Source: Streptomyces sp. QL37
GTDB lineage: Bacteria > Actinomycetota > Actinomycetes > Streptomycetales > Streptomycetaceae
DNA length: 64,000 nt
Assembly (NCBI RefSeq): GCF_002941025.1
Contig: NZ_PTJS01000001.1
Location: 3,844,001-3,908,000 of the forward strand
Reading direction: 5' to 3'
This document shows, one piece after another, positions 1,017-8,383 of the stretch (positions are counted from its first letter, which is position 1; every line of letters begins with the position of its first letter). A program made the position numbers and the translations under genes. The notes beneath the pieces are model-generated. The model did not search any database, had not been told where the DNA came from, and was given only the letters and a program-made list of their open reading frames with translations.

Positions 1017-1739
1017 TCAGATCTTGACGTGCACGGACTTCAGGTACGAGACCGGGTCGAGCGCGGAACCGTAGTTCGGCGAGGTCCGGATCTCGAAGTG
1101 CAGGTGCGGGCCGCTGGAGTTACCGGTGTTGCCGGACCTGGCGATCTCGTCACCCGTCTTCACGCGGTCACCGACGTTGACCTCGATCTTCGACAGGTGC
1201 GCGTACTGCGAGTACTTGCCGTTGGCGTGCTTGATCACGATGGCGTTGCCGTACGCGGGGCCGTCGCCGCCGCCGTTCGGGCCGGCCTTGACGACCCGGC
1301 CGGTGTGCGCGGCCTCGACCTTGGTGCCGATCGGCACCGCGAAGTCCTGGCCGGAGTGCTTGCTGGCCCAGCGGTCGCCGCCGGTGCCGTAGGTGGCGCT
1401 GAGGACGTAGTGGTCGACCGGGGCCTCCCACGAGGCGGCCTTCTTCTTGGCCGCGGCCTTCTTCTTCGCGGCCGCCTTCTTGTCGGCCTCGGCCTTCTCG
1501 GCCTTGTCGGCCTTCGCCTTCGCGACGGCCTTGCTCTGGGCGGTCGCCTGCTGGGCGACGGAGTCGGCGGTGGCCGCGCCGGCGAGGGCCGCGGTGTCCG
1601 CGGTGCCCGTCGTGCCGGACGCGAACGCCGCGCCCGCACCGAACACCATCGACGCACCCAGGCCGGCGGCCACGACGGCGCCACTGACGCGGGGCATGGA
1701 CGGGCGGCGGGAGTGCTGGAACGTAACGCGCTTCGACAT
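1017..1739 (-). CDS. Secreted M23 family metallopeptidase (LytM/lysostaphin type)
   Basis: A 240-residue exported cell-wall peptidase. The start at 1739 was chosen because GGAGG lies 10 nt upstream; a longer frame to 1820 lacks a ribosome site. Residues 1-43 form a long Arg-rich signal peptide. Residues about 68-102 are an Ala/Lys-rich low-complexity linker likely to bind wall polymers. The C-terminal domain has the zinc-binding pair HSGQD (His128, Asp132) and HLHFE (212-216). Such enzymes cleave peptide cross-links in peptidoglycan or act as scaffolds for other hydrolases. I looked for a c-di-AMP (ydaO) riboswitch in the leader, as some Streptomyces wall-hydrolase genes have, and did not recognise one. 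Confidence 0.9.
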   Translation of the reverse strand: MSKRVTFQHSRRPSMPRVSGAVVAAGLGASMVFGAGAAFASGTTGTADTAALAGAATADSVAQQATAQSKAVAKAKADKAEKAEADKKAAAKKKAAAKKKAASWEAPVDHYVLSATYGTGGDRWASKHSGQDFAVPIGTKVEAAHTGRVVKAGPNGGGDGPAYGNAIVIKHANGKYSQYAHLSKIEVNVGDRVKTGDEIARSGNTGNSSGPHLHFEIRTSPNYGSALDPVSYLKSVHVKI

Positions 1740-2017
1740 GCGGGGAGAACCTCCGGGGTGACTGGACCCGGTGCTCGACCGGGCTTGCTCCACCTTGGTA
1801 ACCCGCGCCCCCGGCAACACTCAAACACCCCATCTACGATCAAAAGCCGTAGTGGAGGGGGTGGGAATTCATCTCGCCGGCCGCCCCGGAGACGGCGGAC
1901 GATCTTCCGGATATTTTTCGCGAAGCAGGTTTAACCCCAGTTCCAAAGCAGCCCTTCCAGGACATGAGCCAGAAATACGGTCATATTCACCCAAACGCCG
2001 AAAGGCTCCCCGCAGGT

Positions 2018-2190: not shown

Positions 2191-2550
2191 ATGGACGACG
2201 CCACCACCCATGACCTCGACGGCATCGAGCTCGCCGACGCCGTCGAGTCGATCCGCAACCAGCTCGTCGACGCGGCGGCCCGGGCCACCGGCAGGCCCCT
2301 CGCCTTCTCCGTCGGCGACATCCAGATGGAGTTCACCCTCGAACTCCGCAGGGAGCACAAGGCGGGCGGCAAGGTGAAGGCCTGGGTCGTCGAGGCGGGC
2401 GCCGACACCTCGCGCTCCACCGGCCGCACGCACAAGGTCGGCTTCACCCTGACCCCGCACAACGCCGTGACCGGTGAGGCATGGGAGATCGGGGACGAGG
2501 AAGCGGGGAGCACCGCGCGCTTCGGCGGCGGCGGCACGGCAGGGTCGTGA
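2191..2550 (+). CDS. Trypco2 (trypsin-co-occurring domain) family protein
   Basis: A 119-residue protein made of little more than one small domain: an N-terminal helix (ELADAVESIRNQLVDAA), then alternating strands (LAFSVGDIQMEFTLELRR, VKAWVVEAGAD, THKVGFTLTP). The order and the last motif match the Trypco2 domain, known from comparative genomics to travel with trypsin-like and NACHT/STAND proteins in bacterial conflict systems. The ATG at 2191 follows a GGGGGGA run. Its TGA overlaps the GTG of the next gene (GTGA at 2547-2550), so the two are translationally coupled and presumably make partners. Role inferred: adaptor or regulator of the protease-NTPase; no direct evidence here. Confidence 0.82.
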   Translation: MDDATTHDLDGIELADAVESIRNQLVDAAARATGRPLAFSVGDIQMEFTLELRREHKAGGKVKAWVVEAGADTSRSTGRTHKVGFTLTPHNAVTGEAWEIGDEEAGSTARFGGGGTAGS

Positions 2551-5500
2551 GAGCGCTGCAGCCCTCCGACCGCACGGTCGTCGTCTCCGGCGCCCTCCAG
2601 GGCAGCGGGGTGCTGCTCACCGACCGGCTGGTACTGACCTGCGCCCATGTGGTCAAGAGCAGCAACCGGTGCCACCTCGCGCACCCGGACGTCACCGGCC
2701 CGGTCCCGGCGACGGTGGCCTGGATCGACCACGACCTCGACGCCGCCCTGCTCCAGACCTCGGGCCCGGTCCTTCCGGTGGGCCCGGCCCGGCTCGGCCT
2801 GGTGGACACCCGGCAGGCGATGGCCGACTGCGAGATCACCGGCTTTCCCCGCATCCAGCGGTACGGCACCGAGAAGAACGCGGAGGCGGACCAGTACACG
2901 GCGACGGTCCTGCCCATGGCGGGCCGGATGCGCGACCTGCTGGTCTGCGACCTGGACGGACCACCGGTCACCCCGTCCGACCAGGAGCTCTCCGGGCTCG
3001 CGGGGCTCTCCGGCGGTCCCGTCTTCGCGCGGGGGACGTCCTGCTCGGGATCGCCCGCCAGGTCCCCCGTCAGCGGGGCGGCAGACGCGTCGAATGCGTA
3101 CCGCTCGGCCCCTTGCTCGCGGCGAAGCCGTTCCGGCTGGTCTACGAACAGAGCGGCCCCAGGCTCCGCCACGAGAAGGTCCACGGGCATTTCCCGCGGG
3201 ACCTCCGGTACGAGGAGGAGTACGCGGCCTCCGTCGGCGCCGCCTACCGGCGTACGAAGATCTTCGGGCTGGACGAGCTGGGCCGGCACGACTCGGAGTG
3301 GGACCTGGACACGGCCTATCTGAGCCTGGAGGCCCAGTCCCAGGCGCTCCCCGCCCCCGGACCCCAGCGCGTCGACGCACTCCTCGCCGACCGGCACCGG
3401 GTCCTGCTCCGGGGCGACGCGGGTGCCGGGAAGACGACTCTCCTGTGGTGGCTGGCCGCCCATGCGTCGGCCCGCACCCTGAGCGATGCCCTGGAGCCGC
3501 TCAACGGCCTGGTCCCCTTCGTCGTCCCGCTGCGGACACTCCGCGCCCGGGGCAGCACCTTTCCCGGCCCTTCCGGGCTGTCCGGCGCGGCCGGCCTGGT
3601 GGTCGACGCGGCCCCCGACGGCTGGGCGGGCCGGGTGCTGGAAGCGGGCCGGGCGCTCCTGCTGGTGGACGGTCTGGACGAGGTGCCGCCCGAGGAACGG
3701 GAGGAGGCCCACGCGTGGCTTGCGCAGCTCCTGGAGCGCTACCCGGACACACGCTGCGTGGCCACCGTCCGGCCGCTGGCCGTCGAGCCGGACTGGCTCA
3801 GGTCGGAAGGGTTCGAGGAGCTTCGGCTGCTGCCGATGCGGAACGAGGACATCCAGTCGTTCGTGACGTCCTGGCACCGGGCCGCGCGGCTGGTGGCGGA
3901 GGACGAGGACCAGGTGGGACTGGGAGAGCTGGAACGCGGCCTCTCCCGCCAGTTCACGCAGAACTCCACCCTGAGGGACCTGGCCAGGACCCCGCTGCTG
4001 TGCGCGGTGATCTGCGCCCTGCACCGGCGCCGCGAGGGGCTTCTGCCGGAGACGCGGTGGAAGCTGTACCGCTCCGCGCTCGAAATGCTGCTGGGCAACC
4101 GCGACCGCCGCCGCCGGATCGACGGCCCCGAGGGCATCGACATGGACGTCGAGGAGCACACCCAGCTCCTCCAGCGCATCGCCGTGTGGCTGGTGCGCGA
4201 GGGCCAGTCCGAGTTCACCCGGGAACAGGCGCTGAAGCAGCTGGACCGGGCCCTGCCCGGAATGGACCGGGTGAGCGCACAGGGCCCGACGGACAGGATC
4301 CTCACCCATCTCCTCAATCGCAGCGGCCTCCTCCAGAAGCGCACCGACGACACCTACCAGTTCGCCCACCGCACCTTCCAGGACTTCCTCGCCGCCAAGG
4401 AACTCGTCGAGGACGACCACCTGAAGGAGCTCCTCGGGCACGTCGGCGAGGAGCAGTGGCAGGACGTGATCCTGCTGTCCGCCGGCCACTGCGGACGCCG
4501 GGAGCTTCCCCTGCTGGTCGAGGGACTGCTGGAGGCCGGACTGGCCCGCGACGAGGGCTCACAGGCGCGTACGGACATCCACGTGCTGGCAGCACTGTGC
4601 GAGCAGCACGCCACCTGGCTGGACAGGGACGTACGCGAGCGGGTCCGGCGGAGCACGGCGGCGCTGTTCCCCCCGGCCGACCGCAAGCAGGTGACCGCGC
4701 TCGCGCGGCTCGGGGCAGCCGCGCTCGCCTTTCTCCCCGACCCGCGGAGTGTGTCCACCGAGGACCCGGCCACGACGCTGGTGGTGGACCTGATCGGCGA
4801 GATCGGCGGAAGCGACGCACTTCCGCACGCCCGTGACTGGGCTCGCCTGCACCCTGGTCTCGGCGGGCGTTTCACGCGCAGGTGGAGCCACTACTCCGCC
4901 GACGAGTACGCCCGCGAGGTACTGGCCCTCTGCGATCTGCGGAGTTCAGTGGTCCCGGTGCGGGACAGGGAGGCCCTGAGGGCACTGCGACACCTGCCGT
5001 CCGTGGACTTCCTCGCGCTCAGTGCCGATGCGACCGACGCGCAGATGCGCGAGGCACTGGAGGAGAAGCAGCTGGGGCTCGTCATGGTCCACAGCAACGC
5101 GTACGCCAAGGGTCTGACCTGGCTGACCGGCTCCGCAACGTCATTGCTGTCCCTGTCCCTCACCCGGTGCCCCGCGCTCCAGGACCTCGACGCGCTCGCG
5201 GAACTGACCGCCCTCAAGGTCGTGATCCTGAACGTTCCGCTGCTGCCGGCCGAACGCCTCGCACCGCTGGCCCGGGTCTCCGCACTGGCCTCGCTGAGAC
5301 TCACCAGCAGCGTGGACAGGCTGAGCCGGATCCCCGCCTGCGCCTCGGTCACCAGGCTCGCCGTGAAGAGCCTGCTACCGCTCGCCCTCGACAGCCTCGG
5401 CGACTGGCCGTCACTCACCGACCTGACGGTCTCCGCGGCCCCCGTGTTCGACCAGGCACTCGCCGAGCTCCGCGCCCACCCCAGGATCACAGGGCTGGGG

Positions 5501-5788
5501 CTCACCGCGTTCCCCTGGGCGGACCTGCCGAGCACCGCCCAGGCCGTTCCCACCATCGAGACCCTGACCGTTCAGGCGCCGCCCTCCGGGGAGGACGTGG
5601 GATGCCTGCGCGAGCTCTTCCCCGCGGTCACCCGGCTCACCCTCAGCAGCTCCGCACAGGGCGCGCCCCTGGACCTGACCCCGCTGCACGACTGGCCCGG
5701 ACTACGTGTCACGGTCGCCGGAGCTCACAAACCCTCGCTCGTCGGGGCGGAGGAACTGGGCAGTCGGCTGGACATCGGGACGTACTGA
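2547..5788 (+). pseudogene. Trypsin-NACHT-LRR (NLR-like) protein with an apparent 1-nt frameshift
   Basis: Read through one lost base this is a single protein of about 1080 residues. Part 1 (GTG 2547, frame open to 3323): trypsin-like domain with His34 in TCAHVV, Asp65 in DLDAALL and Ser155 in GLSGGPVF. Part 2 (other frame, to 5788): the end of the protease fold (GDVLLGIARQV), a linker, the NACHT NTPase with Walker A GDAGAGKTT (about 290-298) and Walker B LLVDGLDEVP (about 373), a helical part ending in TFQDFLAAKEL, then leucine-rich repeats from about 850 to the end. The switch falls at the G run 3031-3035: one more G restores a continuous protein. It may be an assembly error, a disabling mutation or a slippery site. 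Such proteins are STAND sensors; here an LRR would sense and the protease act. Confidence 0.8.

Positions 5789-5857: not shown

Positions 5858-8383
<2,526 letters not shown>

Follow-up and report, generated by a model that had tools for sequence, protein, structure and literature searches.

Bacterial proteins that join a NACHT module to leucine-rich repeats (LRRs) are regarded as bona fide bacterial nucleotide-binding leucine-rich repeat receptors (NLRs), and these bNACHT proteins are built from an N-terminal effector, a central NACHT and a C-terminal sensor (PMC12169576). We analyzed a stretch of 64,000 nucleotides from Streptomyces sp. QL37 (contig NZ_PTJS01000001.1, positions 3,844,001 to 3,908,000; hereafter the window), in which a gene for a small Trypco2 protein overlaps sequences encoding a trypsin-like peptidase, a NACHT domain and an LRR-like sensor, all lying in the interval between an M23 peptidase gene and clpC (the clpC slot). 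While the layout is that of bNACHT proteins, the receptors in the clpC slot differ from those described in having a protease head accompanied by Trypco2, a fixed place beside clpC and a sensor that is diverse block by block. We consider that the window unit is probably an allele of a resident Streptomyces NLR locus, whose product would be a protease fired by a swappable LRR sensor.

Three other described systems share features with this unit. In VMAP ternary systems, too, Trypco2 is encoded next to a trypsin-like peptidase (Kaur et al. 2020, PMC7159879), but in the window unit there is no VMAP match at E ≤ 0.1 and the partner is a NACHT-LRR protein; the genes beside it, scanned with the MoxR and vWA partners of VMAP systems in question, encode TetR, M23 and ClpC proteins. 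The CARD-NLR-like LypABC system likewise couples a trypsin-like peptidase to an ATPase, and both are required for lysis (PMC13236601). LypABC, however, consists of three proteins, with a CARD and a separate NLR, whereas peptidase, NACHT and LRR are on one chain in the clpC-slot relatives; in the one that we modeled the peptidase fold starts at residue ~4, no search aimed at CARD having been made. Finally, STAND proteins of multicellular bacteria, including NACHT proteins, have C-terminal sensors diversified by diversity-generating retroelements (DGRs) (PMC10907252), but there a retroelement mutates a lectin domain, while in clpC-slot receptors an LRR block differs along its length. Neither a clpC-linked receptor locus in Streptomyces nor block replacement of the LRR sensor of a bacterial NLR was found described in the open-licence PubMed Central literature, supplements aside, where nothing relevant on NNH1 (see below) was found either, and a term search of the accessible part of an actinobacterial defense paper (PMC10482375) returned no mention of NLR, Avs or STAND.

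Intact relatives combine a peptidase head, a NACHT switch and an LRR sensor

At clpC loci, we found 41 trypsin-NACHT genes, including one duplicate, in which a single frame is open across both domains. In an alignment of 42 rows, formed by these genes and the NACHT piece of the window, the peptidase residues are invariant wherever a row has a letter (His 41/41, Asp 41/41, Ser 40/40), as are the Walker residues (42/42). The 4-nt overlap between the Trypco2 and receptor genes is kept in 30 of 40 trypsin-NACHT relatives, so the two-gene unit put forward in a preliminary description of this DNA is real and conserved. Among the remaining ten, Trypco2 lies within 30 nt in five, three have an NNH1-type gene upstream with Trypco2 undetected, and the final two are second copies that do not have one. 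When an intact relative served as the query of a protein search, 1423 of 7992 scored candidates matched at E ≤ 1e-10; wherever the 120 matches listed carry an organism name, it is Streptomyces, with the exception of one Kitasatospora. When the search was not centered on clpC, seven of the 13 matches aligning from the peptidase end turned out to sit in the clpC slot.

As for the C terminus, described earlier as LRR-like, no LRR model passes its cut-off on the window sequence (best 16.2 bits, cut-off 27), and the claim stands through the relatives instead: Pfam finds LRR_4 in 9/40 and LRR_14 in 5/40 of them at E ≤ 0.01, the Streptomyces silvae relative passing the LRR_4 cut-off (27.5 versus 27 bits). 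In the predicted structure of an intact relative, residues about 214-1082, from NACHT to LRR, are closest to the solved structures of NLRC4, NOD2 and NLRP3, and residues 4-201 to those of DegS/DegP. The relatives' Pfam matches and this model support a predicted LRR sensor in the family, and the proposed NLR-like layout holds at the level of the fold. The likeness is one of fold and order only, since animal NLRs carry a CARD or PYD and the clpC-slot receptors are bacterial, with a protease head. The model of Trypco2 was poor (predicted local distance difference test score 55) and unfit for a fold search. The products of three trypsin-NACHT genes (L120, L126 and L138) are short, at about 735-739 aa, and seem to lack the LRR end. 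In the receptor tree, L120, whose record is titled Streptosporangium nondiastaticum, is placed with Streptomyces klenkii and S. hiroshimensis; the record may be misnamed or contaminated.

Receptors of the clpC slot appear to be old residents

Our locus sample comprised 35 same-genus genome intervals, 80 named clpC loci and the window (116 loci), of which 105 were complete intervals and 102 were kept after dropping the clpC-identical L073, L129 and L148. The named loci, all except one under a Streptomyces name, are the best 80 of at least 531 confirmed and were picked on similarity of the ClpC tail, not on the receptor, which biases the sample to close kin. A NACHT gene occupies the slot in 56/102 Streptomyces loci (19/35 for the same-genus genomes plus window, 37/67 for the named set): one trypsin type in 30, one NNH1 type in 18, both types in 5, two trypsin types in 2 and two NNH1 types in 1, leaving 46 with no NACHT gene. 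The second type has NNH1 (PF22733) in 29/29 and LRR_4 in 14/29 members scanned. Wherever the two types are in tandem (L037, L106, L113, L115, L144, L117 and L139, the M23 gene not being found in the last two), the trypsin type is nearer clpC (7/7). NACHT matches at clpC loci are each antisense to clpC, as judged on up to three matches per locus chosen without a strand filter. NACHT-less slots other than those with remnants (see below) harbor members of gene clusters present in 8, 7 and 3 loci, whose scanned representatives (two per cluster) have matches to acid phosphatase, PQQ beta-propeller and S13 peptidase, so the slot is permissive. At L133, L134 and L041, the slot holds a full-length Trypco2 without a trypsin-type gene.

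The preliminary description took the unit for an accessory cassette inserted among core genes, and recent insertion would fit its patchy presence (the 46 slots without a NACHT gene), the copies found elsewhere in some genomes and genome G029 (L059), in which ClpC is 99% identical to that of the window and the slot has neither a NACHT gene nor a remnant. Against this, the same slot is used in the same orientation in 56/102 loci, and the divergence of the receptor tracks that of clpC: amino acid distances of the receptor correlate with nucleotide distances of clpC with r 0.77 for 41 trypsin-type rows (window excluded) and r 0.61 for 29 NNH1-type rows, and none of 2000 permutations was as high for either type. 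In a tree of 88 NACHT-region rows, including 15 off-locus copies that all come from loci fetched in this survey, the trypsin and NNH1 types are resolved as two distinct groups (100/100 and 100/97). All five off-locus trypsin-type rows cluster together (89/81, unstarred), two off-locus rows fall inside the NNH1 group, and on this tree 2 changes suffice for the trypsin-type clpC rows versus 29.5 in shuffles. Moreover, remnants or a lone Trypco2 were detected in 11/46 NACHT-less intervals by profile and in 12/46 by tblastn, with none in reversed controls. The calls are weak for L100 (profile, E 2e-4) and L043 (tblastn, E 4e-4), and the tblastn queries included the Trypco2 proteins of L133 and L134 themselves, both also found with that of the window. 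On the shared slot, the clpC correlation, the tree and the remnants we reject recent insertion as the main reading; it is quite unlikely. The slot receptors are instead old residents, inherited largely with their flanks and often lost, and both this history and the receptor architecture are well supported by the comparisons. In L035 (genome G005), whose ClpC is 99% identical to that of the window, the slot holds decayed Trypco2, peptidase and NACHT pieces.

The LRR sensor differs as a block between a shared core and clpC

The LRR end is by far the most variable part of the receptor. When the NBC_01237 (L049) and TSRI0281 (L085) loci are compared in 60-nt bins, the last part of the core is 90-100% identical (82% in the first bin; ~98% for the core overall), the next ~1.3 kb falls to 45-87% DNA identity (mean about 60%), and clpC is 97-100% identical from its stop codon onward. 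The window and S. silvae (L072) show the same edges, identity being 67-90% toward the end of the core (first bin, 38%), 40-72% in the sensor and 92-100% in clpC. Silent sites follow suit: for L049/L085 their divergence rises from 0.049 (core) to 0.879 (sensor), and for window/L072 it is 0.455 in the core, 0.938 in the sensor and 0.062 in clpC, although codon bias may lower the clpC value. In 9 of 11 pairs with similar cores, silent sites have diverged further in the sensor than in the core (0 to 30 of 2000 permutations). These silent divergences may be overestimated where codons of the sensor are imperfectly aligned, a problem that does not touch the DNA identities; the ClpC values of 5/14 pairs were ignored because their extracts were misframed (nonsynonymous divergence above 0.6).

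The same contrast is seen among 160 proteins (120 listed database rows and 40 loci, some proteins being in both), which form 20 clusters at 80% identity by their cores and 95 by their sensors. Enough aligned letters were available for 12,090/12,720 pairs, counts of which contain repeats: 63 pairs combine a core of at least 93% with a sensor of at most 60%, the mean profile falling near residue 650-660, and in 12 the identity of the sensor exceeds that of the core by over 0.03. Under single species names, taken as written by the sequence sources, mean identities of core and sensor are 88% and 40% for S. anulatus (11 alleles), 90% and 61% for S. cyaneofuscatus (12 alleles), and 98% and 71% for S. 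parvus (7 alleles). NNH1-type pairs display a similar drop, as in L037/L041 (core 90%, C terminus 38%).

Replacement of the sensor is well supported as a pattern, and the silent-site excess calls for recombination or exchange, or for long-kept allelic lineages. As to the route, we infer, tentatively and with slightly less than even confidence, that the LRR block may be exchanged as a unit by homologous recombination, the NACHT core and the end of clpC serving as homology arms. It would act on a tandem pair of NNH1-NACHT-LRR and trypsin-NACHT-LRR genes under birth and death, a counterpart of plant R-gene loci that would provide an NLR repertoire at the level of the population. Two other routes were rejected. 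Shuffling from sampled donors was not seen, 0/12,090 pairs having a sensor of at least 93% on a core of at most 85%, and DGR mutagenesis is at odds with the lack of RVT_1 matches to reverse transcriptase in the genome (0) and with silent sites that diverge along the whole block.

A protease receptor with a predicted role in phage defense

In the relatives, one protein, co-translated with Trypco2, unites an HtrA/trypsin-like head, the NACHT switch and the LRR sensor at the C terminus. By analogy with the families concerned, the sensor would bind an infection cue, upon which the NACHT would exchange nucleotide and oligomerize, and the clustered peptidase heads would become active and cut a target, leading to growth arrest or cell death. 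Trypco2 may restrain the peptidase, deliver it or be its substrate. The sequences show that the peptidase and NACHT parts are conserved, that the sensor end of ~1.3 kb, between core and clpC, varies as one block, and that whole genes are often lost. The role of such a receptor is probably phage defense, and wide variation of the sensing end among strains is what an arms race should produce in an immune receptor. If so, the locus bears on how bacterial NLRs gain new specificities, since it offers a natural allele series, in part within one species name, with a shared protease-NACHT core and differing LRR blocks, in which a given core would be expected to confer different phage ranges when combined with different sensors. 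It would also offer a protease receptor resembling animal NLRs, with a substrate and a Trypco2 partner that genetics could identify.

Several points weigh against a resident NLR locus with a swappable sensor. The window copy is not intact, 5/40 trypsin-type genes are not directly preceded by their own Trypco2, unrelated genes also use the slot, and G029 shows a closely related clpC beside a slot without receptor or remnant. Two of the 11 close pairs have no step at the sensor (1629 and 542 of 2000 permutations), and no donor of a sensor was found among the 12,090 pairs. The multi-domain structural match has a root-mean-square deviation near 20 Å. No PADLOC model covers the NLR part (best E 0.011 for the NTPase part), matches at E ≤ 0.001 being confined to the peptidase part (LmuA, RT-Protease and, at 0.001, Avs1b), and among NCBIfam models the EruA match falls far short, with 27.5 bits against a cut-off of 1000, and no NLR family is above cut-off. 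Lastly, the adjoining genes scanned (TetR, M23 and ClpC) are housekeeping rather than defense genes; the association with defense genes that the preliminary description had looked to is absent among them, and these neighbors give no support for the defense reading.

These neighbors, the adjacency of clpC itself and the HtrA-like head would suit a non-immune regulator or protein-quality device, that is, a STAND (signal transduction ATPase with numerous domains) switch on a housekeeping protease, perhaps tied to ClpC. We deem this unlikely, because frequent loss and a hypervariable sensor are unlike a housekeeping part, and acid phosphatase-like, beta-propeller and S13 peptidase genes occupy the same slot. 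A guard of ClpC was also considered and set aside: nothing was found in its favor, and again other genes take the same place.

The sensor diversity under one species name, of which the 11 S. anulatus alleles are an example, could also be that of a het-like allorecognition receptor, whose alleles would kill or arrest mycelium upon contact or DNA transfer between unlike strains. Presence/absence variation at the slot and the analogy with fungal het NLRs (PMC12222747) are compatible with this. There is, however, no sign of a self-derived ligand in our data. Hyphal fusion between unlike Streptomyces is, to our knowledge, not known, and allorecognition is very unlikely.

The copy in the window is broken or misassembled

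Returning to the window unit as a probable allele of the NLR locus, its features are collected in Table 1. Profile searches place both Trypco2 and NACHT well above their cut-offs, and the preliminary description was accurate as to Trypco2, its GTGA coupling, the three peptidase residues at the positions claimed and the two Walker motifs, which are intact in the NACHT frame (A, GDAGAGKTT; B, LLVDGLDEVP). Its single trypsin-NACHT-LRR protein was not confirmed for this copy. The Trypsin_2 match is in the frame of 2547 and the NACHT match in that of 3041, and the profile of the relatives aligns over model positions 4-189 in one frame and 188-1105 in the other, switching frames near 3030-3045; an ORF of 1104 aa (2474-5788) is out of frame with the peptidase upstream of the frame-change site. 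With its two domains out of frame with each other, the window copy is broken between peptidase and NACHT, or misassembled there. The Trypco2 match is the only one in the genome, which has five NACHT matches, three of them above the Pfam cut-off.

A trypsin-NACHT gene is also split in S. fulvorobeus (L087, 10429-13895), with peptidase and NACHT in different frames. The recurrence might point to a functional break, either a programmed frameshift or an on/off switch. This is highly improbable, as the breaks do not coincide on the model (about 188 in the window, about 160-169 in L087) and 40 relatives have one open frame.

Table 1. Features of the window unit and its flanks (window positions)
Feature	Position	Strand	Basis
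M23 peptidase gene, left flank	1017..1820	-	Peptidase_M23, E 5.4e-32
Trypco2 gene, 119 aa	2191..2550	+	PF19631, E 8.3e-26, 90.5 bits (cut-off 24.2)
GTGA start/stop overlap of Trypco2 and peptidase frames	2547..2550	+	sequence
Trypsin-like peptidase frame, His34/Asp65/Ser155	2547..3040	+	Trypsin_2, E 7.9e-11, 43.3 bits (cut-off 27.6)
Approximate frame-change site, true break or assembly error	about 3020..3045	+	profile of relatives
NACHT frame with helical region and LRR-like sensor	3041..5788	+	NACHT PF05729, E 8.7e-21, 74.9 bits (cut-off 26.7)
NACHT domain	3398-3883	+	profile match, converted from genome coordinates
Replaceable C-terminal sensor block, left edge approximate	4480..5788	+	fall in DNA identity to S. 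silvae
clpC, convergent right flank	5858..8383	-	Clp_N, AAA_2, ClpB_D2-small

As for the flanking genes, clpC has a match at E ≤ 1e-200 in 60/61 genomes searched, weaker rows possibly being other Clp ATPases, and the M23 peptidase gene has matches in 35/61.

Trypco2 beside other trypsin-STAND proteins

The 61 genomes contain 63 Trypco2 rows, of which we fetched 20 that rank in the upper part and lie at a distance from clpC. The next gene has a trypsin-like match in 11/20 of these places and is a VMAP gene in one, the context in which Trypco2 was originally reported. Several of the trypsin-like neighbors have a STAND domain above cut-off (NACHT, NB-ARC or nSTAND5) together with tetratricopeptide repeats (TPRs), and others have weak NTPase matches only. 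Trypco2 thus partners trypsin-STAND receptors of several kinds. At L157, L159, L162, L164, L166, L169 and L171, the trypsin proteins next to Trypco2 match NACHT, NB-ARC, nSTAND5 or AAA_16, in some cases under cut-off, and most of them have TPRs; they belong to a wider Trypco2/trypsin-STAND family.
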